From Magnolia sinica (taxonomy: Eukaryota > Streptophyta > Magnoliopsida > Magnoliales > Magnoliaceae), in NCBI RefSeq assembly GCF_029962835.1, contig NC_080588.1:68354501-68418500 (forward strand): a stretch of 64,000 nt of DNA. Direction: 5' to 3'. Shown in pieces: positions 15,689-61,687 of the stretch. Position 1 is the stretch's first letter. Every line of letters begins with the position of its first letter. Below the pieces are notes generated by a model. The model saw nothing but the letters and a program-made list of their open reading frames with translations, was not told where the DNA came from and ran no database searches. The position numbers and the translations under genes are program-made.

Positions 15689-18600
15689 ATGGCCGGATTC
15701 TTATCGACTCTCAGGCGTCTTTACCTCTCAATCTACAACTGGACCGTCTTCTACGGCTGGTAATTTCCCTCTCCACTCTCTCTGTGTGGCTACTTACTAC
15801 TGGAAGAATCCTAGCCGTCAAAGTAGTGGGATTCAGTGTAGATGGATTATGACCTAAAAAATCAAGCTGAAGTGTGGTGTTTACTGCCCGATTGGGGGAG
15901 ATCTAATGGACGGTGCAGATTTTCAACAAACGAATGTCAATTAATCGGAGGCGTGGATTCTGTGACCAGTTTGATTTTGGGGAAATGACCAATCTGTACT
16001 GGATTCCACTATTTTGGGCGGTTCAGATTTGAGGACATGACCAGTTTAGATGGATTACCACCCAAAATCAAGCTAAGTTGTGGTGTTAAATGGCCGATTG
16101 GGGGAGATCTAATGGACGGTTCAAATTCAACAAACGAACGTCCCTTAATTGGAGGCGTGGATTCTCTGATCAGTTTGATTTTGGACACATGAACAATCTA
16201 TACTCGGTCCCACTATTTGGTGGTTTAGATTTGATTATAAAGGGTGGCATGCTGTGGTTTTTGTTTTTTTCCTTCCATATTTTGATCATTTTAGTTTTGA
16301 TGTTGGATTTGAATTTTGGTTGCTGCTGTTGCAGGTTGCAGGTTTTGTATCTTGCTTTGAAAACTTTGAATGAATCGGGGCATGAGAAAGTGTATGATGC
16401 GGTTGAAAAGCCTCTGCAGCTTGCGCAGACAGCAGCGGTCATGGAGGTATGTCTTCGGAGGATGGTGGAATTTCCTTTCACTTATTGAATTTTCTTTTCT
16501 TGGAGCCACTATTTACAGAATTACACTGACCATGATTGATTTGCATACACCCATCTCCCCCTTTTGGAATCAAATCAAGAAGCAGTTCAATGCCTGTACT
16601 TGTGTGGGGGCATGCGGGCAGTCCAATGGCTTGATCTGGACTGTCCTTTATGTCCAGACCATGTTTCATTGGTCACCATGCAAAATTTACACTATTGGAC
16701 GATTCTAACAGTCCAATCAGCAGTGTGCGAAATGGATGGTCAAAATTATTTATGGGAGAATAGTTCCAATCAACAATTCTAGTCATTCATTTGGTGCGGT
16801 TCATCATGGATTGTGTATGGCCCCAAAAGATTGCTTTGATCAGAAAATCCTAAAGAATTTGAATGGTTGAAGATGGCCTACCTTTGGATGGATAGAATCA
16901 TCTGATCAGTATGATTTTTGCATTGTGGCCTATGAAGCATAGGCTGGACCTGATGGATGTGGATGCTCAAGATAAACCATTTGGACTGTTCGTGCATCCC
17001 CATGCAACTAGGAGCACTGGACAATTCCTTGTTTCAATTCCCAAAATGCATTATAAGTGTATGCAAGTGTAGATTCAATCATCTTCCTCTTCTTTTTCTC
17101 ATGTAATTTAGAAGATGTTCGATATATTTCATGCTCTGTACTTATTCTTTGTTTTTCTTGTTCGCAGATTCTTCACGGTCTTGTAGGTATGGAATTTCCC
17201 CCCTTAAGGATTATTCCAGATAATTTCTGATTCTAAATTATAGTAAGAATTTATGAGTAAAAGAGAGATGTACAGGTGGTGATGCAAACCCAAAAGGGAA
17301 AGGAAATAAATCAATAAGAAAAAATAGAGATTGTGGGCAAGATCCAACAATCCTCTAGCCGGATGCTAGAGTTCACAAATGCAAGACTGTGAGCAAGCTC
17401 AGTAGTCTTCTAGTCTAGAACTAGAGATCACTTTCCCTCCCTTCAACAGCCACCGTAGAGAAAAGAAGAAAATTTCATAAAGAGAACATTGATCAAGTTG
17501 TGTTATTTCATAGGACATAGGTCCTATTTATAATCAACTTTACAATCTGTAATAAAAGATATAAAATCTAAAAATCTATGAAATAGGAAAGCACCTAAGT
17601 AACAAGCATTCTATAATTAGGAAAATGCCTACAATAAGAAGATACTTGGATAAGAAAATATTTAAAATTATTTCCTGCCTAAAAATAAGGATATGAAAGA
17701 AAGAGCAAATCTCCTAATTTAGAGATTTGAAAAAAATGGAAAGTGATGATGGCTAAAAAAGGAAGGTGGTTCTTTTCTTGTACACACGCGTGGAGCGTGC
17801 TTGTGTGAGATGCGGGCATTTTCTTCAAATCTTGATCAATCGCCACGTGTGGCCATTTTGTTGCATTAGGTGTGCACACCTTTCAGTAATCCACCATCAT
17901 CTGGTGGGACCACCATGAATGGATGACCAAGTCACATCCCTCAATCAATCCTAGCCATTCAGTCAGCGGGCTTCTTTCCATTGCATATCCACTAGGTATA
18001 TTCTTTCCTTCTGACTGTGCATTCGCTGTAAAAAAAAGGATGGCTAGGATTGTTTGGTGGGAACAGTTTGTCTTGTATTGCCTATTAACAGAGGGGAATC
18101 ACCAGATGAGCTGTCTGGGTCGCTTATAGGTGGGACCCATACTAAATGCTGGCCTGAATGAAAATTCCAGTAGTTTCAGGCCATGTGAATCATAGTTTCT
18201 TTTAAAGGAGCTGATATTTGTGCAGCACTGATTTTTTTCCTTCTTCTCATTTTCTCTGTTTTGGTCTTGAGAAGGTCTGGTAAGATCTCCGGTATCTGCT
18301 ACACTACCGCAGATCAGTTCGAGGTTGTTTGTAACGTGGGGTATTTTGTGGAGTTTCCCTGAGGTAATGGTGCTACATTCAATAAACATTTATTATTACT
18401 ACTTAAAGTAAAGAATTGTACTAACAAAATGACATTTCATCTGTAGACTCGAACACACTTGCTTGTTAGCTCTCTGGTTATCAGCTGGTCTATCACAGAG
18501 GTGCGGGTTCTTACATGATTATGAAATGAATTCATCGCATCTCCTGAAATTTTTTCGATTAGGAGGTTACTCTTGTTGGCTAATTTGGTGTTGCATTGTT

Positions 18601-18909
18601 AATTCCTGTGTCTACGGTGGTGAGTAGTTCTTAGTTAATGGGCAATTTGATTTTCAGTTTCTGACAATTTACTTACCACTTCTTTAATGTTAAAAAGGTT
18701 GAATTTGTTAGTTCCAATGAATTGATACTTCCTCAAATTTATTTTGAACATTAGCATTTATTGTAGGAGAAAATTTACCTATTCCGAGGGTGCACTGCCC
18801 CAAATGGGTCATTTTTAGAGTTGTCCCATCTCATTGATTTCACAATCATATAGCTGACCTAGAATTGGATGGTAGAAAGAACTAGGGGATGTGGCATGTG
18901 CAACGCATG

Positions 18910-18972
<63 letters not shown>

Positions 18973-21900
18973 GGAGGGAAAGGGCGAGGATAGGTGCGTA
19001 CACACATAGGGTGAGAAAGAGAGAAGAGTTGAACAGTGGACGGCCCATCTTGACTGTTTCCAACTGTGGCCCATCTGTGTTTGTGGTCTCCCTATTTTTT
19101 GAGTTGACATTCTAGCTTGAGCCAGCGCGCTAGATGTACAGAGTGGATGTAAACAGAGTCACCATGATGGCACCGTGGAGTCTATGTTGCATAGGTTCCC
19201 TAAGATCGTCTTCCGTGTAGGTTACATGCAAAAGGAGGAGAATGGGTGTGGGATCATGGTATTTCATAGCTGTAATGGTGACCGCAATGGCCACCACCAT
19301 TGCTGTTACAATAGGGGGCCGTAATAGCTGTTATGTCTTTTTTTTTTTTTTTTAAATTTAAATTTATTTATTTTTTATAACCCTGTATCAGCCCTGTAAC
19401 AGACCGTTATGGGGCCGTTACCCCCATTACAGGTCTGTCATGGGCCTTTTTTTCCATAATGGCCATTATGACCCCGCCACGTGTAACGGTGGTCACCGTT
19501 ACTGTTACGTATACGTAACGGCCATTATGTAACCGTTTTTACATACCTTGGTGGGCTACTTGCATGAAGAAGAGAGAAATGATAAAAATGACCAATGCAC
19601 TTTTCTCTAACTAATTACAGGGGTAAAATTGTCCAAACACTTCTTGAATCAAAAGCTGCTCAAAAGCTTTTTGAGGGTGATATTTGAACCATATGATTGA
19701 CAACAACCACATTTTTCAGTTCCCAAAATACCCTACCTTCATTTGAAATCTCTTACCATATCCTTTGAATATCCAAAGTTTCCGTCGATACGAAGACCAA
19801 TCGTGGGGGCCAAAATGTCCAAAAGCTCCTTGTTGTCAATATTAAACAGGATGCATGCAGAAATGGTGAAGCTGAGTTTAGGAGTGTATTTGATTGGTTA
19901 ATTCTTGGTGCTTTTGAATGGGTCTCAGAAAGGATTCTTTAAGGTGTCAAGCGGTCTTTGACAGGGGGACCTGATCTCTCCCTTCCTCTTTGTGGTGGCT
20001 GCGGAAGCATTGGGCAAGACGTTGGATAAAGGGTTAGTGGCGGGGCTCATGAGTGGATTCAAAGTGGACAGAGGACGATCAAATATCTCACTGGCAGTTA
20101 GCCAATGACACCATTCTCTTTTGTGACATGACAGTGTCCGAGGTGGACAATTTGAGAAAAATAATTAGATGCTTGGAGGTGTTGTAAAGATTGAAGGTGA
20201 ATATCTCCAAAAGCGAGTTGTTGGGGGTTGGTCTGTCTGAGGAGTTGGAGAATTTCGAGGAAATTTTTGGCTATTGAGTGGGTTTCTCTCCTACTATGTA
20301 TCTTGGCTTATACATTGGTAAACTGCCAAAATGCTTCTAGGACAAGGTTATCGAAAGGGTAAAGAGGAACCTTTCACGGGGGAAATGCTAACACCTTTCT
20401 TTAGTTGGGAGGTTGACTTTAAGGAGGCATTGTTAAACTTGCCGCTTTACTGCATGTCTCTCTTCAGGTGTCCGAGGTTTCTTTTGGATAGGTTGGAGAG
20501 GTTGAGACGTGGCTTTTCGTGGTGGGGTGCAGATGTATAAGAAAATTTTCATTTGCTGAAATGGAAAGAGGTTTGCAAGCGTTAAGGAATTTGGAGGGAA
20601 TGAACTCAGCATTGTTAGGCGAATGGTTATGAAAGTTTGGCTCAGAAGAGGACCATTTATGGAGGGAGGGGATAGCTAAGAAATATGACGTTCAAGAAAA
20701 GGGGTGGTGGATGAGAGGCTCATCGTTTTATAGGGCCTTGGCGATGTGGAAAGCAATCTACAGAATGGGGACCAAGTTTAAGAAGGGCATCAGGTTTTCT
20801 TTGGGAGATGGGAAAGGGATCCGCTTTTGGAAAGATATTTGGTTAGATGAGAAGGTGCTTCATGAAGAGCTTCTGAAGTTGGCGAGGCCAGCTATGGATG
20901 CAGATATCAGTATAGATCAATGTCAGTTAACCTCAGGTGGTGGAGTGGTGTGGTTACCACCTTGCTGGAGAAACCCCGTTGGATGAGGAACTAGATGAGT
21001 TCATGCGGCTTCTTGATAGGCTTCAAAATACTCTCTGTGGCTTGGCTTGTAGGGATGCGATGGCATGGGTGCAAGAGAAGTCAGGTCAGTTCTCAGTTCG
21101 GTGTAGCTCCAAGAGGAACTTTTCTGTTGATCAGTATAGATCAATGTCAGTTAACCTCAGGTGGTGGAGTGGTGTGGTGTTGGATGAGGAAGTGGATGAG
21201 TTCATGTGGCTTCTTGAAAGGCTTCAAAATACTGTTTATGGCTTGGTTTGTAGGGATGCGATGGTATGGGCGCAAGAGAAGTCAGGCTGATTCTCAGTTT
21301 GGTCTAGCTCCAAGAAGAACAATTCTGTTGAATTTTCACGGCTCTCTGAGATCAATTGATCATAAGGTACTGACATTAGTGATAGATTCCAATTTCTCGC
21401 GTTTGGATTTTCCAGTTAACTTTGATGGAATCAGGAGGTTAATTCTAAAGTTGAGTCTTTGAAAAACTTAAACGGTTAGTTTGCCAAGAATCTAGATGTG
21501 GGAAAGCTGGCGAGAAAAGGCAGAATGCCTAAAACTGTCCCAATCCAAGTTGTTCGTCAGAATGTCAGTCTCTGAGATTGGCAATGAATGGCTCAGCATC
21601 ATAGCCTAGCTCCCTGTCTGGGTTAAGCATTTCAAATCTTTAACCCAGTCAGTTGTTTTTGCTGTTTTGCTTGATTGCTGCATTATCTATCTCGCCCCAT
21701 TGTTTTCTGGGTCCTTTTCTTTATTTGCTTTCATATCTTTTTATCCTCTTTAATGCAACCTTAAAAAAAAGAAGAAAGAAGATAGGCATCATGTTCTGTT
21801 AGTATATGCATCTTCTTCAGCAGGATCCGTGAGTGTAAACACCAAACTAGAGCTGATCAGTTGCTTGATGGAATTGATTAGCTTTCTATCTGGGTTTAAA

Positions 21901-24343
21901 TCCATGCCTCCCACTGTTGTAGGGAAAGCATCTTTGATTTCTGGTAGTTCCATTTCTTTGTGCTTTTCCAGCTTTATGCAGGGTCAGTGGGTAATATAGA
22001 CAGAACATGGTTCTATTATAGGATGATGGATCTCCGTGCATCATTTTTATTGAACAATGATACAGTATGCTCAGCACGTACCTTTGCTTTCTGAGCCACG
22101 GTCCCTTGCCATAGAACTCTATAACATTCCATGGCATTCTCTCTCTCAGAGAAGAAGAGAGGATAAGAAGAAGAAAAATGCTGACCCTTGTCTAACAAGG
22201 ACCCTTCAATGTTTTAAAATGGCCTTTTCAGACACGCCACTAATGGCACAATCAAGGGAGAAAAAACCTGATTTTAATGTTTAATTTTGTTTTGGTATTC
22301 TTTTGTGTGTGTTGCGTGGGTATCATATTTTATTTAAGAGGTCTCAAGTCCAATCAGTTGGACCATAGTTTACTATCCACCTAGCAAATAACTTCCAACC
22401 TGCCACATGTGTGCAACATCCAATCCTTCCGATAGGTTGGCCCCACGATGAGTATCACTTCATGCAAAGTCCACCACCATTGACTCATCGGACCGGCCAT
22501 GCCATTAAAAATAATTTATAGCCGTTGATAAATAAGAAAACATAATTGTGGTCCACATAATGAGTGGATGTGGCTAGCATAAGGTGATCCGCATGATGGG
22601 GACAAGCTATTGGACGGGTTGGGTGTAACCCACACATGACAGGTTGGAAGGTATATGCTGGGTGGATGAAAACTTTTGGTCCAACTGGTTGGACTTGATA
22701 CCTTCTCTTTATTTAATTATGCAGTGATTTATTTAGAAATATGAAATCTTTAGATATTTCATGTACTCGTAGAATTTATACAGTTCATATGTCACCCTTA
22801 CATGTGTCCATGACCCAGCTGCACATGTAGAAAACAAAAGAAGAATCTGTAAACAAATTTGTATAATTGGAATCCATTCTGAATTCTGCCTAGAATTGTT
22901 CAAATTTTCATGATTATTCCATCTAATATTTTGATTATCCCTGTTGCCATTTGCTTTTTCACGGCAGTCCATCTTGGTATACAAAACTATGACTTGCATT
23001 TTCCAAATGTCTTCTCAAAATATGAACTTCAAACAGAAATGAATCTCTTTTTGTAGTCTGAACATTGTTATGCTAGTTGTAATTGCAGATTATTCGATAC
23101 TCTTTCTTTGGCATGAAGGAAGCACTTGGAGTTGCACCTTCCTGGCTTTTATGGCTCAGGTATAGCTCGTTACAAATGACTTCAAAGCAATCTTGATCTT
23201 TTTAGAAATTATTTAATTCTGTGAAATTGAATCTATGCAGGTACAGCACCTTTTTGGTATTGTACCCAACTGGCATCACCAGCGAGGTTGGTCTAATTTA
23301 TACGGCTCTGCCATACATCAAGGTAATAATTTCAATGATAAATCAGATTGGCCTCCTTAACATCGTGGTTTTAAAACTTGGGTTGTGAAGCCACTAAGTT
23401 GACTTGGGAGTTGTTAGACCTGACATGCAGCAAATAGCGCAAGTCTTAAAACCCTGGGTAGGCTCTGCTGACTCGGGCCAGCAAGGACGGATTGTTATGG
23501 ACTTCCGGCTATGTGCCTGAGTCAGGCCAAGTTGACCCGAGCAACTTGTCTGGCAAAAAAATGTTCAATGTACTCGGGTTCTTAATTAGTTAAGTGGGGC
23601 CCATCGTTCCATAATCCAATCTGTAGGTATGATATGGATTGCTGTGGATGGATCCCACTCTAAATAATTTCTACATTAGAATATCCTAGTCACCAATGTT
23701 GGTGATTTCTTCTTAGTCACGTTTAGACCATTACTATATTTTAGTATTTCCCTTCCTAAAGAATTATATGATGTGTGGCCCGGTTCGGTGGAGTTTTTTT
23801 TTTTTTAATGGTAGGGCGGAATGGATAGCATCTGAATGAATGCAGAACATAAAGGTTTCACCAGTTCACCTAGGTAGGTGGCTGGGCTTGAGCCACCTGA
23901 CGTAGATGGTTCGAGCAGTTTCCTTCCAAAAAATAGGTTTCTAGTGACCCATCCTTTTTTTTAGTGGGCTGGTTCAGTCCAACTGTCTGATCTGGTCTGG
24001 GTTTATGAATGCTGCTATTTGTTTTTCTTCTCATGGGTGCCTTACGTTTCTGTTTGAGATGATTTCAGGGGTCTGATAAGTACTGCGTAAGGATGCCCAA
24101 CAAATGGAACTTCTCTTTTGATTATTTCTATGCCTCGATCCTAGCCCTTGGAATCTATGTCCCAGGCATGGAACTTCACCTTATTAGTGTTTGATCAAAT
24201 ATGTTTGTGGATTTCTGTTGCATAGTTGATAAGATTGATAGCTGACCATGTTCTGTTATTGGATTGTTTCAGGCAGCCCACACATGTACCAATATATGCT
24301 GGGGCAGAGGAAGAAAGCTCTCTCCAAATCTAAACGAGAGTAG
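15689..24343 (+). CDS. PAS2: Very-long-chain (3R)-3-hydroxyacyl-CoA dehydratase PASTICCINO 2
   Basis: Exons: 15689-15759, 16335-16446, 17168-17186, 18275-18363, 18447-18500, 23089-23159, 23241-23322, 24069-24165, 24273-24343. All phases join, giving 221 codons plus TAG, the usual plant length. The product starts MAGFLSTLRRLYLSIYNW and closely follows Arabidopsis PAS2 as I recall it. The PTPLA/HACD family removes water from 3-hydroxyacyl-CoA in the ER elongase cycle. The segment YPTGITSE (residues 147-154) places Tyr147 and Glu154 seven apart, matching the catalytic pair of yeast Phs1. Several hydrophobic spans fit a polytopic ER protein, and the C-terminus KSKRE fits a KxKxx retrieval signal. 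Exon 3 is only 19 nt. Intron 8 uses a GC donor (CCAG|GCATGG). Intron 5 is 4.6 kb and full of transposons. No coding disruption was seen. Confidence 0.96.
15823..16237. repeat. Tandem duplication of about 200 bp in PAS2 intron 1
   Basis: Two copies, about 15823-16034 and 16035-16237, share TAGATGGATTA, ATCAAGCT.AAG, CCGATTGGGGGAGATCTAAT, GGACGGT, CAACAAACGAA.GTC and GGAGGCGTGGATTCT. Divergence is roughly one base in six. Confidence 0.8.
17275..17885 (-). mobile_element. Copia-like LTR in PAS2 intron 3
   Basis: On the minus strand the sequence reads TTATAAATAGGACC..TGTCC, then a downstream leader with CTTGATCAATGTTCTC, a GGGAGGGAAAGTGATCTCTAG block and a TTGCTCACAGTCTTGCA block. This is the organisation of a Copia LTR with a TATA box and R/U5. 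Related to 3478-3900 and 4205-4690. No internal region is attached, so it is a solo LTR or fragment. It lies antisense to PAS2. Confidence 0.5.
18911..18971. repeat. (GA)n microsatellite, about 60 bp, in PAS2 intron 5
   Basis: An almost pure GA dinucleotide run. Frames through it (poly Arg-Glu or Ser-Leu) are artefacts. Confidence 0.95.
19255..19545. repeat. GTAACGG-rich fold-back repeat in PAS2 intron 5
   Basis: Many copies of GGCCGTTA / TAACGGCC / CCATTACAG text in both orientations flank a T16 tract and an AT-rich core. It is likely a decayed MITE. Similar low-complexity text (CATAGCG, TGTAGC) is seen near 2020-2170. Confidence 0.45.
19860..21785 (+). pseudogene. 5'-truncated L1-type LINE, dead, inside PAS2 intron 5
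   Basis: Plus-strand translation shows the RT segment LLNGSQKGFFKV...QGDLISPFLFVVAAEALG (about 19905-20025), a decayed catalytic region reading LANDTILF where ADD is expected, YLGLYIGKLP (about 20300), LPLYCMSLFRCP (about 20440), and a downstream GWWMRGSSFYRALAMWKAIY...GKGIRFWKDIWLDE region typical of the zf-RVT part of plant L1 ORF2. Several in-frame stops (for example TGA replacing the Arg codon before QGD) and frame shifts kill it. The endonuclease domain is missing, so it is 5'-truncated. An A-rich tail lies near 21762-21785. It is on the same strand as PAS2. Confidence 0.8.
20905..21330 (+). repeat. Tandem duplication of about 220 bp within the dead LINE
   Basis: The block starting ATCAGTATAGATCAATGTCA occurs at about 20905 and again at about 21131. 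Each is followed by TTAACCTCAGGTGGTGGAGT and then by a TTGGATGAGGAA...TTCAAAATACT...GGGATGCGATGG module. The second copy lacks a few bases after the shared GTGTGG. Confidence 0.85.
22346..22696. mobile_element. MITE with long TIR in PAS2 intron 5
   Basis: Left AAGTCCAATCAGTTGGACCA and right TGGTCCAACTGGTTGGACTT are reverse complements with one mismatch. Mirroring continues through TTCCAACCTGCCACATG and CATGACAGGTTGGAA, giving a TIR of about 60 bp. It is non-coding. The superfamily is uncertain because no clear target duplication was found. Confidence 0.75.
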
Positions 24344-41707: not shown

Positions 41708-42500
41708 TAGAGTTGTACACAAGTTGAGTTAGATCTGTCAGCTCACTCAACACGACTCGGAAAAGCTTGACTCGCCTTGACTCGAAACTGGATTCGAACT
41801 GAGTCAAGCTAGTTTTTGAAGCTCGAAAAAATTTCGAGCCGAGTTCGAGCTTGCTTGAGATCAACTTGACCTGGCTCGAACCCCAAATCGAATCGGCTTG
41901 GTGAGTCGGTTATTTTGATCTTTAAAAAAAAAAAAAAAAAAATTTTAACACACGCACACACACCCCACACTCGCGCTAGTGGAATTTCACCAACTATGGA
42001 TACTCAAAACCTTGAACGGGTGTTGAAACTCTTGAGAGTCTACCACCTGAGCAAGAGTACGGATCCTGGTTATTTTGATCTTGATGTTGCTTACTGAGTA
42101 TTTGATAAAACGACTCGACGAAGTGTTGTTTTTTAAATTATTCTTATAGTAGGGTATTCTTAAAATGAGCATTTGAAGGAAGATTGAAGAAACAAATCCC
42201 TATAAAATAAAATAAAAAAAACTTTACATTATAAGACTGCTCTTATATTTTAATCTTGATGCTACTTGCCATGTGTTTGATGAAATGCCTACAAAATGCT
42301 ATTACTATTTTTCATTAAAAGTGTGAGAGATTGAAGATGCATTCTATGCACTTGAAAAAAATGCCTCACAAGCTCGAACTAACCTAAGCTATTGACTGAA
42401 CTAAGTTGAGCTGGCTAGTCAGACTTGAGGATTCGAGCCGAGCATGAGTTGGGGTTGGCTGTTGGTCAAGCTATGCCAAGATCAACTCACATACTACTAT
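41708..42500 (+). mobile_element. hAT-like element with PPR-like cargo, interrupted by a SINE
   Basis: Starts TAGAGTTGTACACAAG. The subterminal GAGCTCG/GACTCG repeat zone and the GAGTCGGTTATTTTGAT junction match the other copies. The cargo reads, with stops, DVAY-VFDKTTRRSVV (about 42083-42130) and later CHVFDEMPTKCYYYFSLKV...IEDAFYALEK (about 42268-42365). The right terminus is too decayed to place exactly. A SINE sits at 41923-42067. Confidence 0.6.
41923..42067 (-). mobile_element. Au-like SINE, copy 4, with 15-bp target duplication
   Basis: GGTTATTTTGATCTT occurs immediately before (41908-41922) and after (42068-42082) the insert. In reverse complement the insert reads TTGCTCAGGTGGTAGACTCT, CAAGAGTTTCAACACCCGTT, TGAGTATCC and GTGTGTGTGCGTGTGTTAAAA with a homopolymer end. 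It is inserted within the hAT-like element, so it is younger than that element. Confidence 0.85.
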
Positions 42501-45561: not shown

Positions 45562-46683
45562 CTGGGGCTGTACATGAACCAAGTAAGCTCTCTCAACTCG
45601 GCTCGTAAAAGCCCGATTTGACTCTGTTCGAAATTGAGATTGAGTCGAGCTGAGCTGATTTTTTGAGCTCGAAAAAATTTCAAACTGAGTTTGAGCTTGC
45701 CAGAGATCGAACCCGAACTCGAATCGAACCTGGATCAAACCAGTTCAAGAGTCGGTTACTTTGATATTGATGTTGCTCACCAAGTGTTCGATGAAATGAC
45801 TTAATGAAGTGTCGGGTGGTGGTAAGGAAACAATTACCATTTTTTCTTGATTTTGACCTTACCTACAAGAAGGGGTGTACATTGAGTCGAACCGAGTCGA
45901 GCTAGCCTCAACTTGACTCGGCTCGGCCACTAGCTAACCTTGGCTCGAACTCGGCTCGGCTCGGTCCTCGAGCCTGATTGGCTAGTTCGGCTCAGTTCGG
46001 TCAGCAGCTTGGGCCAATTCGAGCCAAGATCGATTCAAGTTCGCCATTGTAGCATTTTCACAAACACGTGGACTGCACCTTTAAAATCTCACTGTATTTG
46101 ATACAATAGCAATGATTTTACAGGTATTTTATCAAACACCTTCTAAGTAACATAAAAATCAAGAAAAAAAAGGGTATAAGTTTCATATACATACCTTCCT
46201 TGCCACCAGCGACACTTCGTTTAGTCATTTCATCAAACACTTGGTGAGCAACATCAATATCAAAGTAACCGAGTCACCGAATTGGTTCGATTCGAGCTGG
46301 GTTCGATCCGAGTCGAGCTGCGGCTAGCTTGAACTTGGCTCGAACTTATTTTCGAGCTCAAAAAATCAGCTCGAGTCGGCTCGAACTCAACTTTGAACCG
46401 AGTCGAATCGAGCTTTTTTAACTCGAGTTGAGCGAGCTAGCTCGGTTTGTGTACACTTCTACGTACAAGGTGTTTGATGAAATACCTGTAAACAGCTGCT
46501 ACTGTTTTACATATAGTAAGAAATTGAAAGTGTACTTCATGTATTTGTGAAAATGCCGCACAGGCTCGATCTTGGTTCGAACTCAGCTCGAACTGGCCCG
46601 ATCCGCTGATTGAACAAGCTGAGCTGGCTAGTCAGGCTCAAGGACTGAGCTAAGCCGAGTTCGAGTTGGGGTCAGCTAGTGGC
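45562..46683. mobile_element. hAT-like element (outer copy) split by a second copy
   Basis: The left end TGGGGCTGTACATGAACC is followed by CTCTCTCAACTCGGCTC and a cargo reading FDIDVAHQVFDEMT before interruption at 45869. The right half resumes at 46462 with GTACAAGGTGTTTGATGAAATAC (VFDEI) and GTATTTGTGAAAATGCCGCA, then GAGTTGGGGTCAGCTAGTGG. The outer right terminus is lost against a fragment of a GTGGGCCC-type MITE (46684-46745). Confidence 0.65.
45870..46461 (-). mobile_element. hAT-like element nested inside another copy of its own family
   Basis: Termini AAGGGGTGTACATTGAG and GTGTACACTTCTA. Flanking octamers CCTACAAG and CGTACAAG agree at 7 of 8. Length is 592 bp. Its cargo lies on the minus strand and reads FDIDVAHQVFDEMTKRSVAGGKEGMYM and then KVFDKIPVKSLLL. 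The insertion point is inside the cargo of the outer copy. Confidence 0.8.
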
Positions 46684-47015
46684 CGATGGGAAAATGGATG
46701 GACGGTGTGGATAGAACACATACACCACAGTGGGACCCACAATTTTTTATTTTTTTTTGGACAACCAACTTTGGTCTTGGAGGGATCGGTACTGAATCCT
46801 AGTCGGTGGTTCCCCACCGCAAACGTTCAGATCCTCCGCCGGTGCCACGTGGACAAGTGTGGTGCCGCATTACTGGCACTTGAAGATGGGTCATGTGGCA
46901 TTTGCGTTAGTCAGTTTTTACGTCAGGTTGGGCATAAAGTATATCCAAATACATGGTGTGGTCCACTTGAGATTTATTTATATATTCACTTTAAAGTAAC
47001 TGGCGGATTTTAATA
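46684..47015. mobile_element. Fragments of GTGGGCCC-type MITE
   Basis: AAATGGATGGACGGTGTGGA...CACAGTGGGACCCACAA is a right half. A separate TGGTGTGGTCCACTTGAGAT piece lies at about 46955-46975. The sequence between (46760-46940) is GC-richer and open on the plus strand but has no recognised motif. Confidence 0.45.
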
Positions 47016-49997: not shown

Positions 49998-50550
49998 TAG
50001 GGGTGTACATCGAGTTGAGCTGGCCTCAGCTCGACTGGGCTTAGCCAGTAGCTGACCTCAGCTCGAACTCGGCTCGGTCCTCAAGCCTGATTGGATAGAT
50101 CGGCTCGATTCGATTAGCAGCTGGGGCCAGCTCGAGCCAAGATCGAGCTGAGTTCACCATTATAGCATTTTCACAAGCACCTTGACTGCACCTTCAAAAT
50201 CTCACTATATTTGAGACACCAGCGATGGTTTTACGGGTATTTTATCAAACACCTTCTAAGCAACATAAAAATCAAGCAAATAAGAGTGTTGGTTTCATAT
50301 ACATACCTTCCTTGCCACTAGCCACTTTTCTTTGAGTTATTTCATCAAACACTTGGTGAGCAAATCGATACAAAGTGACCGAGTCACCGAATTGATTCGA
50401 TCCGAGTTCAATTCGAGCTGGATTTGATCCAAGTTGAGCCGAGTTGGGGCCAGCTCGAAATCAATTCGAACTCATTTTCGAGCTCAAAAAATCACGAACC
50501 AGGTCGAATCAAGCTTTTTCGAGTCCAGTCGAACGAGCTGTACAGCCCTA
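49998..50550 (-). mobile_element. hAT-like element with PPR-like cargo and 7/8 target duplication
   Basis: Termini TAGGGGTGTACATCGAG and GAGCTGTACAGCCCTA. Flanking octamers CGCGCAGT (49990-49997) and TGCGCAGT (50551-50558). Length is 553 bp. On the minus strand the cargo includes CACCAAGTGTTTGATGAAAT (HQVFDEI-type) and further on AAGGTGTTTGATAAAATACC (KVFDKI). No transposase. Confidence 0.85.
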
Positions 50551-53879: not shown

Positions 53880-54845
53880 GGGTAAACTGTGGGCCCCACC
53901 GTAATGTATGTCTTTTATTCGTGCTGATCACATGAGCCAAAAAGAAAAAAGAGACAAACCTAAATCTCAGGTGGACCACATGAAACAACGGTGATTGAAC
54001 GCCCACCATTAAAATTTTCCTAGGGCCTCACTGTCACGTTGATTTGCCATCTAGCCCATCGGTTACATCACCCAGACTGGGATGCAAAGAAAAACACAAT
54101 TACCTCGGGAAGCTATAAGCGGTGGGTGTTCCCTTGCCACTATTTCCTATGGCATGAGACTCATGCAGGGCTGCACGCGAACCGGGCTAGCCGGATTAAC
54201 TCACTCGACTCAACTTGAAAAAGATCGGTTCGGCTAGACTCGAAACTGAATTCGGGTTGGAACGGGCCATTTTCTTCGGCCCGAAGTTGAGTAGCCGACT
54301 CAGTCTATATATATATTCTTACCCTAATCATTTACACTAATTTAGGCCGTCCAAATCATGGGTTCTTTTGTAGATGGACCAAAGTCCCAAAAATCTATGA
54401 TAAAAGTCTTTTCCAAAAATTAAAGTTGTTCAAGTTACTTACCAAAGCCTTTCCCATGGAGTAAATGGAGCAGAGTCAAAAAATCATGATCATCTAAATC
54501 GTGGGTTAGAAACTGGCTCGAATACGGCCCGAACTCACCCGATTGCTGACTGAGCCGGGTTCGGGCTGGACAAGTTGGCCAGATGATCAGGCCGGGCCGG
54601 GTTGAGCCTAGTTCAACTTAGTTCAACTCGATGTACACTCCTAGACTCATGAGATTTGGATCGACCTTAGTGTTTAGCTCATCCTTTATTCTAAACTCTT
54701 AAGGTCCCAATTAAGTTTTTAATGGTAGGAGTTCAATTCCTAATTTTTCCTGTTGTATGGTGTTCTTGAGCTTTGGATTTGCTTCATTTTTTTTGGCATA
54801 ACAAATGAGCAGCGTGGATAAATCACATATATCACAATGGCCTCC
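53880..54845. mobile_element. GTGGGCCC-type MITE interrupted by a hAT-like element
   Basis: Left GTGGGCCCCACCGTAATGTA...TCTTTTATTCGTGC, CAGGTGGACCACATGAAACA and TTTCCTATGGCATGA precede the insertion. GAGATTTGGATCGAC...AGCGTGGATAAATCACATATATCACAATGG follows it. Confidence 0.7.
54166..54643. mobile_element. hAT-like element, perfect 8-bp target duplication, different interior
   Basis: Termini CAGGGCTGCACGCGAACC and GATGTACACTCCTA. GACTCATG is present identically at 54158-54165 and 54644-54651. Length is 478 bp. Subterminal GACTCAACTTGAAAAAG and TTGAGCCTAGTTCAACTC match the family, but the interior (54310-54510) lacks the VFDEM cargo and instead holds TTAGGCCGTCCAAATC and mirrored CATCTAAATCGTGGGTTAG. 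Confidence 0.9.
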
Positions 54846-59825: not shown

Positions 59826-59834
59826 ACACTCAAT

Positions 59835-60411
59835 TAGAGGTGTACACAACCGAGCTAGCTCTGTTAGCTCGCTTGACTCGACTCAAAAAAGCTCGATTCG
59901 ACTCGGTTCGAAGCTGAGTTCGAGCCGAGTCAAGCTGGCCCCAGCTCGACTCGACTCGGATTTAACCCAACTCGAATCAAACTCCGATCGAACCAGTTCG
60001 GTGACTCGATTATTTTGATATTGATGTGGCTCACCAAGTGTTTGATGAAATGACTCAGCGAAGTGTGGCTGGTGGCAAGGAAGGTATGTATATGATACTG
60101 TTTTTCCTTGATTTTTATGTTGCTTAGAATGTTTTTGATAAAATACTTGTAAAACCATTGCTACTTTCTTAAATACAGTGAGATTTTGAAGGTGCAGTCC
60201 AGGTGTTTGTGAAAATGCTGCACAGGTGAACTTGGCTCAATCTTGGCTCGAACTCGGCTTGAACTGGCCCGAGTTGCTGACCGAACAGAGCCAAGCTGGC
60301 CAGTTAGGCTCAAGGACTGAGTCGAGCCGAGTTCGAGCTGAGGTCAGCTAGTGGCTGAGCCGAGTCGAGCTGAGGCTAGCTCGACTTGGTTCGACTCGAT
60401 GTACACGCCTA
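59835..60411 (+). mobile_element. hAT-like element with the clearest PPR-like cargo
   Basis: Termini TAGAGGTGTACACAACC and GATGTACACGCCTA. Flanking octamers CACTCAAT (59827-59834) and CGCTCAAT (60412-60419) agree at 7 of 8. Length is 577 bp. From about 60015 one reading frame gives FDIDVAHQVFDEMTQRSVAG, then NVFDKILVKP 31 residues further on, and then GAVQVFVKML, with three stop codons between. Both flanks are GAGCTCG/GACTCG repeats shared by all copies. Confidence 0.85.
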
Positions 60412-60414
60412 CGC

Positions 60415-60885
60415 TCAATGACAATGATGCCCGCTGTTGAAACCTTTCTAGGATATACAGTGATATGTTTATCTGCCATCTAACTTATTCATAAGGTCAA
60501 ATGTATTTGGATGAAGGAAAACATAAACATGAGCTTGATCCAAAACCTCTATGGTGGCCAAGAAGTTTTCAATTGTAGGCATTCAATCACGTGTCCTATG
60601 GTGTGGTCCACTTAAACCTTAGATCTGACTTTTTTTGGGATTTAACCCTAAAATGATATGTAAAAATGGATGGAGGTGTGGATAAATCCCTACAGATCCA
60701 CCAGGACCGTTCGTCTCTAGCTAAATCCTAGTGGGGGTAGTATCCAATCTGCATCCCATTTGAACATTGTCCATTTTTCCAAACGCATGCAATTCCATAT
60801 CATTAGCCTAAATCAGGTTTGTGGATAAGATACATAACTCATGGTGGGCCCCACAGAGTTTACTCAGTAGGCTGAGTTACCCATT
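60415..60885. mobile_element. GTGGGCCC-type MITE, left end missing
   Basis: GTTGAAACCTTTCTAGG, ATCCAAAACCTCTATGGTGG and GTGTGGTCCACTTAAACC belong to the core. The right end ATACATAACTCATGGTGGGCCCCACAG is present. The left end probably sits beyond the hAT insertion and is decayed. Confidence 0.5.
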
Positions 60886-61043: not shown

Positions 61044-61687
61044 TAGAGCTATGTATGAGTCGAGTTAGCTTGGTCAGCTCGCTCGATTCGACTTGAAAAA
61101 GTTTGACTCATCTCGGCTCGAAATTGGATTCGGACCCAGTCGAGCTGGTTTTTGGAGTTTGAAAAAAATTCGAAGTGAGTTCGAGCTTGCCCAAGCTCAA
61201 CTCGACCTGGATCGAGCCAAAACTCGAATCAACTTAGATCAAATCAGCTTGGTGACTTGGTTATCGCCGAGTGTTTGATGAAATGACTCAATGAAGTGTT
61301 GTTTCTAGTGCCTACATTCTCCACGGGATTGGCTGGTGGTGAGGAAGGAATGGATACGAAACAAATCACTACAAAAAAACTTTACATTATTAAACTGCTC
61401 TCAAATCTTGATTTTGATGTTGCCCGCCAAGTGTTTGATGAAATACATGTAAACTGCTGTTACTTTTTGCATTCCGTGAGAAATTGATAATGCACTTTAT
61501 ATATTTGAGAAAATGTCGCACATGCTCAAACTCGGCTCGAACTAACTCAAGTTGCTGACTGAACTGGGCGGAGCTGGTTAGTTAGGTTCGAGGACCGAGT
61601 TGATCCGAGTTCAAGCTGGGTTAGCTACTAGCTGAGCCAAGCTGAGCTCAGCAAAGCCCAACTGAACTCAATTCATATACAACTCTA
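61044..61687 (+). mobile_element. hAT-like element with PPR-like cargo
   Basis: Termini TAGAGCTATGTATGAGTC and CAATTCATATACAACTCTA. Length is 644 bp. The cargo near 61400-61510 reads LDFDVARQVFDEIHVNCCYF and, after a frame shift, ALYIFEKMSHM. Flanks AGCAGA and GCAGCAGA suggest a damaged target duplication. Confidence 0.7.

Follow-up and report, generated by a model that had tools for sequence, protein, structure and literature searches.

The stretch of DNA analysed here (the window) comprises 64,000 nt of Magnolia sinica on contig C16, in a genome of 1.84 Gb in 127 contigs. It contains a non-autonomous hAT-type element at 59835 with 86 % identity to the 605-bp consensus of c1, the youngest of the three forms described below, together with further members of the same repeat family (Table 1). 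The repeat was found to be common to all the places named for it in a preliminary description of this DNA, with one copy nested in another (45870-46461 within 45562-46690). The copies at 59835, 45870 and 49998 were assigned to form c1, that at 61044 to c2 and that at 41708 to a c3-like group, and the outer 45562 copy formed a sister branch of c1.

The sole gene recognised in the window has + strand exons in 15689-24334 and is presumably a PAS2/PHS1-type 3-hydroxyacyl-CoA dehydratase gene; Pfam scans of two frames within this region gave no match. The 145-bp insertion in the 41708 copy has an A-tract at its left end (+ strand), its minus strand shows A-box text resembling that of a tRNA, and the A/B-box-like text suggests that it may be tRNA-derived. 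A repeat family designated D1, with 8 copies in 41000-62500 and text like CTCAAGTGGACCACACCACAGGAAACAGTGG, is perhaps another MITE.

Table 1. Elements of the family and associated features in the window
Feature	Position	Strand	Details
Non-autonomous hAT-type element, youngest form c1	59835..60411	+	Ends TAGAGGTGTACA / TGTACACGCCTA
Left target-site duplication cactcaat of element 59835	59827..59834	.	Right copy cgctcaat 60412-60419, 7/8
Piece A of captured PPR exon, remnant DIDVAHQVFDEMTQRSV	60016..60066	+	C12 exon 84.3 % over 51 bp, E 1e-9
Piece B of captured PPR exon, remnant FEGAVQVFVKMLHR	60186..60226	+	C12 exon 85.4 % over 41 bp, E 5e-7
c2 (middle form) copy	61044..61687	+	83 % to 669-bp c2 consensus; C12 exon 43 bp at 93 %
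Old c3-like copy	41708..42500	+	19 % from c3 consensus; degenerate right end; duplication 6/8
SINE-like insertion, 145 bp, within 41708 copy	41923..42067	-	15-bp duplication GGTTATTTTGATCTT at 41908-41922 and 42068-42082
Older copy interrupted by nested member	45562..46690	+	Right terminus gone; duplication 4/8, i.e. none
c1 copy inside copy 45562..46690	45870..46461	-	Duplication cctacaag/cgtacaag 7/8; 87.6 % to c1 consensus
c1 copy	49998..50550	-	Duplication cgcgcagt/tgcgcagt 7/8; 82 % to c1 consensus
Sister-family element, related ends, unrelated interior, without PPR cargo	54166..54643	+	Duplication gactcatg 8/8

Ends, duplications and superfamily

An autonomous partner would be expected to have TAGAGNTGTACA ends and TCGAG-rich subterminal repeats. 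The consensus termini were TAGAGGTGTACA and TGTACACCCCTA for c1, and TAGAGCTGTACA and TGTACAACTCTA for c2. Elements of the hAT superfamily have a short TIR starting YARNG, and the ends of both consensuses conform to this. Target-site duplications were scored at offsets of ±1 in 30 fetched copies of each form. At least 6 of 8 bp agreed in 28/30 c1-form and 24/30 c2-form copies, and 7 or 8 bp in 24/30 and 19/30 respectively, these samples including some non-independent copies with common flanks (L012/L032, L045/L055 and L057/L065/L066). The 8-nt length of the duplication is a feature of hAT elements (PMC8903248).

Within the window, the hAT-like ends and 8-bp duplications of the preliminary description stood for the copies at 59835, 45870 and 49998 (7/8), as they did genome-wide, but not for the outer 45562 copy (4/8); the 41708 copy reached 6/8. 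The 61044 copy gave 6/8 at ±1 offsets and 7/8 solely after a border shift. Single duplications in the window are weak evidence, because random places scored at least 7/8 in 110 of 2000 trials at the ±6 offsets used for the window scan, and the genome-wide test at ±1 offsets is the stronger of the two.

Pack-MULEs are recognised by a 9-bp duplication and long TIRs. Membership of this group was rejected, the duplication being 8 bp and the TIR about 12 bp. The consensuses, of 605, 669 and 655 bp for c1, c2 and c3, lack a transposase of their own, and no transposase-length frame was found in their translations (both strands for c2, the element + strand only for c1 and c3). A genome search with 60003-60230 gave 4300 first-look candidates, of which the best 40 were scored, and 40 matches besides the query were 88–91 % alike. 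The corresponding search with 61265-61530 gave 2598 first-look candidates, again with the best 40 scored, and 39 matches besides the query were 84–90 % alike. As 605–669 bp, non-coding sequences with first-look candidates in these numbers, which are not copy numbers, the family has the properties of a high-copy MITE.

PPR character of the interior and its three forms

The PPR-like text quoted in the preliminary description is present, with FDIDVAHQVFDEM, NVFDKI and QVFVKM following one another in a single frame over 60002-60240, and the interval from the first VFD to the second is exactly 31 residues. This spacing had been taken as a hallmark of PPR S motifs and turned out to be an accident of the 59835 copy. 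In the c1 consensus the frames of the two VFD motifs differ, and a 7-bp loss relative to c1 brought the motifs into one frame, which accounts for the exact spacing. The first two motifs are about 55 residues apart in the c2 and c3 readings, and the donor's two are about 101 apart.

Nine pieces, comprising window copies and the c1 consensus, were scanned against Pfam. The 59835 frame was the only one to match PPR models, below cut-off; among the other eight, one had a weak match of an unrelated kind and seven had none. The same frame had no match in PDB up to E 1. A reading of the 41708 copy with frames joined matched a synthetic PPR-DYW protein in PDB at E 0.0013. Taken by themselves, the window copies thus make a weak case for a PPR interior. 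For the c2 consensus, one of four forward readings, with a frameshift joined, had PPR models as its first Pfam matches, below cut-off, and its three best PDB matches included two designed PPR proteins (E 1.5e-4 and 6.2e-4).

The pattern QRSV-V-S-W, the expected continuation of a PPR S motif, is absent from the c1 and c2 consensuses. A genome search with it found 11 places, all matching the c2 consensus, and the reversed control found 0. Seven of the 11 were older, c3-type copies that read on in PPR-like fashion past the pattern (for example SWTALISGC, SWTVLISGYS and SWIALISGYSR). The remaining four (L078, L079, L083 and L084) were rejected as having met the pattern by chance, since their text after the motif is not PPR-like (IRWQGR, IWWRGR). 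Five of the seven older copies had PPR matches in Pfam, two of them over cut-off, and two had no PPR match; for one copy, L080, the match to a synthetic PPR-DYW protein had E 6.6e-26 with the repeats summed and 4.7e-7 for the best stretch.

The c3 consensus was built from the seven pattern-picked copies and the window copy 41708, so that its first motif is partly selected by the pattern; the B piece, the second motif and the donor-exon search described below are free of this bias. With frames joined, the c3 consensus exceeded the Pfam cut-offs for PF01535, PF12854 and PF13041, and its reversal had no match. A PPR HMM scan of a consensus, proposed earlier as a check, was therefore passed by the consensus of the older copies. 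The second c3 motif, untouched by the pattern, had PPR models as its sole Pfam matches, below cut-off.

Divergence from the respective consensus was 2.9–11 % in 29/30 c1 copies (one at 18.5 %), 6.5–13.7 % in 28/30 c2 copies (two at 17–18 %) and 9.4–18.8 % in 8/8 c3 copies. Median terminal branches were 0.047, 0.074 and 0.137 for c1, c2 and c3 respectively, in a midpoint-rooted tree of 72 rows representing 71 distinct copies (61044 was entered twice). The rise of both measures from c1 through c2 to c3 indicates that the oldest of the three consensus forms is c3, which also has the clearest PPR character. With the midpoint root, c3 fell inside c2 and not at the base of the 72-row tree; the unrooted tree is compatible with an origin on the c3 side. 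Similarity to the donor, divergence and branch lengths together suggest that the forms arose in the order c3, c2, c1.

The cargo is about 290 bp in c3, with the middle missing and the stretch containing the VFD motif doubled, similar in length in c2 with the motif text decayed, and about 220 bp in c1. The PPR part is more decayed in c2 and c1, and these forms yielded more first-look candidates. Change in the c2 cargo at codon positions 1, 2 and 3 was 8.5, 7.4 and 7.8 %, and stops were present in 28 of the 30 copies, with 2 lacking them. In c2, the form analysed, the cargo evolves like passive filler without protein constraint. An intron captured in the c1 interior, as its flanks (GAAG|GTATGT ... 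ACAG|TGAG) might indicate, was considered and rejected, the donor frame being open through the stretch.

The donor exon and whole-segment copies

A composed PLS-PPR query was searched against the genome; the best 150 of 3426 candidates were scored and eight of the better ones fetched. The c3 cargo matched a single exon of one gene, on contig C12, in stretches of 110 bp (94.5 %) and 80 bp (87.5 %), and its third stretch, a repeat of the first, matched the same exon at 84.5 % over 58 bp. Of the other fetched PLS genes, the closest reached 75 % over 84 bp. Within the window, 42076-42185 of the 41708 copy was 74.5 % identical to the C12 exon over 110 bp. The idea of a captured PPR-gene fragment is thereby borne out at the DNA level, with a specific host exon as its counterpart.

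The C12 gene has two long frames, one of 323 codons ending at 35917580 and a second at 35918135-35919310, which would be joined across an intron as ..LRDGI/MPDHFTF... Both frames contain PPR repeats (PPR_2 at 93 and 107 bits against a cut-off of 30), and the second also carries an E motif (E_motif 59.8 bits, cut-off 27.3). The captured stretch is C12:35916935-35917478, within the first frame (coding exon 1). PPR repeats of the PLS class over the Pfam cut-off were thus found in the donor frames, the c3 consensus and the C8 copy described below, and not in 59835. A sister-family hAT element, a longer relative of 54166-54643, lies at C12:35915837-35916764 with the perfect duplication GCCGCACC, about 170 bp before the captured stretch. 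It is upstream of the donor gene, with some 115 bp between its end and the presumed start codon.

A genome search was made with 376 bp of the donor exon, independent of the QRSV-V-S-W pattern, the best 40 of 1106 candidates being scored. These 40 were the donor gene, 13 places alike over 259–365 bp (77–90 %) and 26 places whose best match was the A piece only, with the B piece close by in 23 of the 26. Termini were checked at 2 of the 13 near-full-length places, and 2 of the 26 A-only places (L080 and L082) were read. At C8:85992946-85993823, 518 bp of uninterrupted exon (88.6 %) lie between the left and right family ends, and at C2:107286677-107287563, 540 bp (85.9 %) are enclosed in the same way. 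The duplications agree at 7/8 in both (accacagt/accacggt at the C8 copy and gtcatgac/gtcatgat at the C2 copy), each element is about 880 bp, and the C8 copy scored 62 bits for PPR. Two places, L088 and L089, had been considered as relatives of the gene; this was rejected, as they are transposon copies with the whole segment. With a host gene fragment between their TIRs, the C8 and C2 copies are Pack-hAT elements.

Taken together, these results identify the element at 59835..60411, with a probability of about 95 %, as a late product of a Pack-hAT lineage, now eroded, with an interior that derives from exon 1 of the C12 E-class PPR gene.

A continuing effect of the copies on the donor gene via small RNAs would be improbable. 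The longest exact sense match to the donor exon was 11–16 nt in c1 (n=30), 12–26 nt in c2 (n=30) and 14–35 nt in c3 (n=8). A length of at least 21 nt was reached in 4/30 c2 copies and 4/8 c3 copies, and some old copies elsewhere could yield exact 21-nt small RNAs matching the donor; the c3 set was, however, chosen by pattern, which raised its score. None of the 30 c1 copies and none of four further window copies (10–17 nt) reached 21 nt, the 41708 copy, counted in c3, had 14 nt, and shuffled c3 gave 8–13 nt. As the longest exact match in the window is 17 nt, no exact pairing with the donor would be possible for 21-nt small RNAs produced by the window copies, and action of these copies on the parent gene appears unlikely.

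The presence of the segment in all three forms could point to a native part of a hAT element or to a remnant of an ancestral autonomous transposase, the latter having been named in advance as the finding that would overturn a captured fragment. This is very hard to sustain, since the Pfam matches of the cargo (window pieces, c1, c2 and c3) included no transposase family, the interior of the sister family is unrelated although its ends are related, and the segment runs on into the C12 PPR gene with its E motif. Acquisition in the reverse direction, by the PPR gene from a transposon, is equally implausible. The segment forms a normal internal portion of a PPR array whose gene has additional repeats and an E motif, and the c2 cargo is without constraint, although the sister element near the presumed start codon does indicate that transposons have been active at the locus. 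A purely fortuitous VFDEM-type string, luckily spaced within a non-coding MITE, as the sub-cut-off window copies, the copy-specific 31-residue spacing, the lack of a PDB match for the 59835 frame and the 4 of 11 fortuitous pattern matches might suggest, is already refuted by the agreement of the c3 consensus with one host PPR exon over 110 and 80 bp, by the outcome of the donor-exon search and by the 518–540 bp of contiguous exon in two copies.

Proposed history and known systems

For the origin from the C12 exon, the DNA content of the copies gives a series from the donor exon through a whole-segment element of about 880 bp to c3, c2 and c1. About 540 bp of exon 1 were captured by a non-autonomous hAT-type element, and either template-switching repair or an aberrant transposition event between adjacent elements may account for the capture. 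In the Pack-CACTA model, two neighbouring elements are joined and the DNA between them is taken up (PMC13317346). The position of the sister element close to the captured stretch shows that neighbours of such a kind do land there; its proximity is maybe a coincidence, because such elements are common (as at 54166-54643 in the window). The element would then have been moved by a hAT transposase acting in trans, and loss of cargo probably accompanied amplification. We tentatively suggest, as a possibility slightly short of an even chance, that successive stages in the origin of a high-copy MITE are preserved in this one genome and that the amplification was released when the gene piece was lost, either by an escape from silencing directed at the shared sequence or because short elements transpose better.

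The origin of a common anonymous repeat is in this way followed through intermediates to a single donor exon of its own genome. Pack elements can thus wear down into a plant MITE family, and faint PPR-like text in repetitive DNA can represent genuine relics. Whether the shedding of host sequence frees an element to multiply can moreover be tested directly with this series.

The kind of element is already known (Pack-TYPE, here Pack-hAT), and what is less usual is that a single genome preserves the steps leading from a donor gene to a decayed, numerous MITE. The hAT-type MITEs of plants usually arise by internal deletion of an autonomous element; the Magnolia family differs from them in keeping a gene-capturing intermediate. 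Such MITEs are likewise short and numerous, with TIR and duplication and without coding capacity (PMC12550479). Pack-hAT elements have been described in rice and maize and are alike in being non-autonomous, with hAT-type ends, an 8-bp duplication and a host gene fragment (PMC8903248). The Magnolia lineage, in contrast, shed most of its cargo and became a numerous MITE, a series that does not appear in the accessible text of that rice and maize annotation.

The cargo of the KAONASHI-MULE of Arabidopsis is ULP. This element resembles the present one as a high-copy family and is discussed among gene-capturing MULEs (PMC2528002), but it is a non-TIR MULE, whereas the Magnolia family has short TIRs and 8-bp duplications. 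The same source describes grapevine Cactavine-5, a cut-and-paste transposon in which part of a PPR gene lies downstream of the transposase frame in two reported copies (PMC2528002). Cactavine-5 is a CACTA element, whereas the Magnolia family is hAT-type and non-autonomous. As judged by titles and the beginnings of abstracts, subscription papers lying outside the scope of the search, no description of the Magnolia family or of such a donor-to-MITE series was found among the papers listed.

PPR genes on C6 and C3, which we take to be RFL-type, were also considered as donors and rejected, because the c2-type element there is one insertion co-duplicated with the genes. At these five loci (L069-L073; C6 86.5–87.3 Mb and C3 126.87 Mb), the c2-type match lies 274–1159 bp past the end of the longest frame, ctcatgga is present at one or both element borders, and the 400-bp right flanks of three loci are 92–97 % alike. 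The co-duplicated insertion is old and usable as a marker of the history of the RFL cluster. At a further place (L074, C6:86616000-86621000), the left ctcatgga is present and the longest frame is not PPR; its minus strand has a 288-codon frame with CCHC zinc-knuckle-like text, presumably resembling the gag region of a Copia-type retrotransposon.
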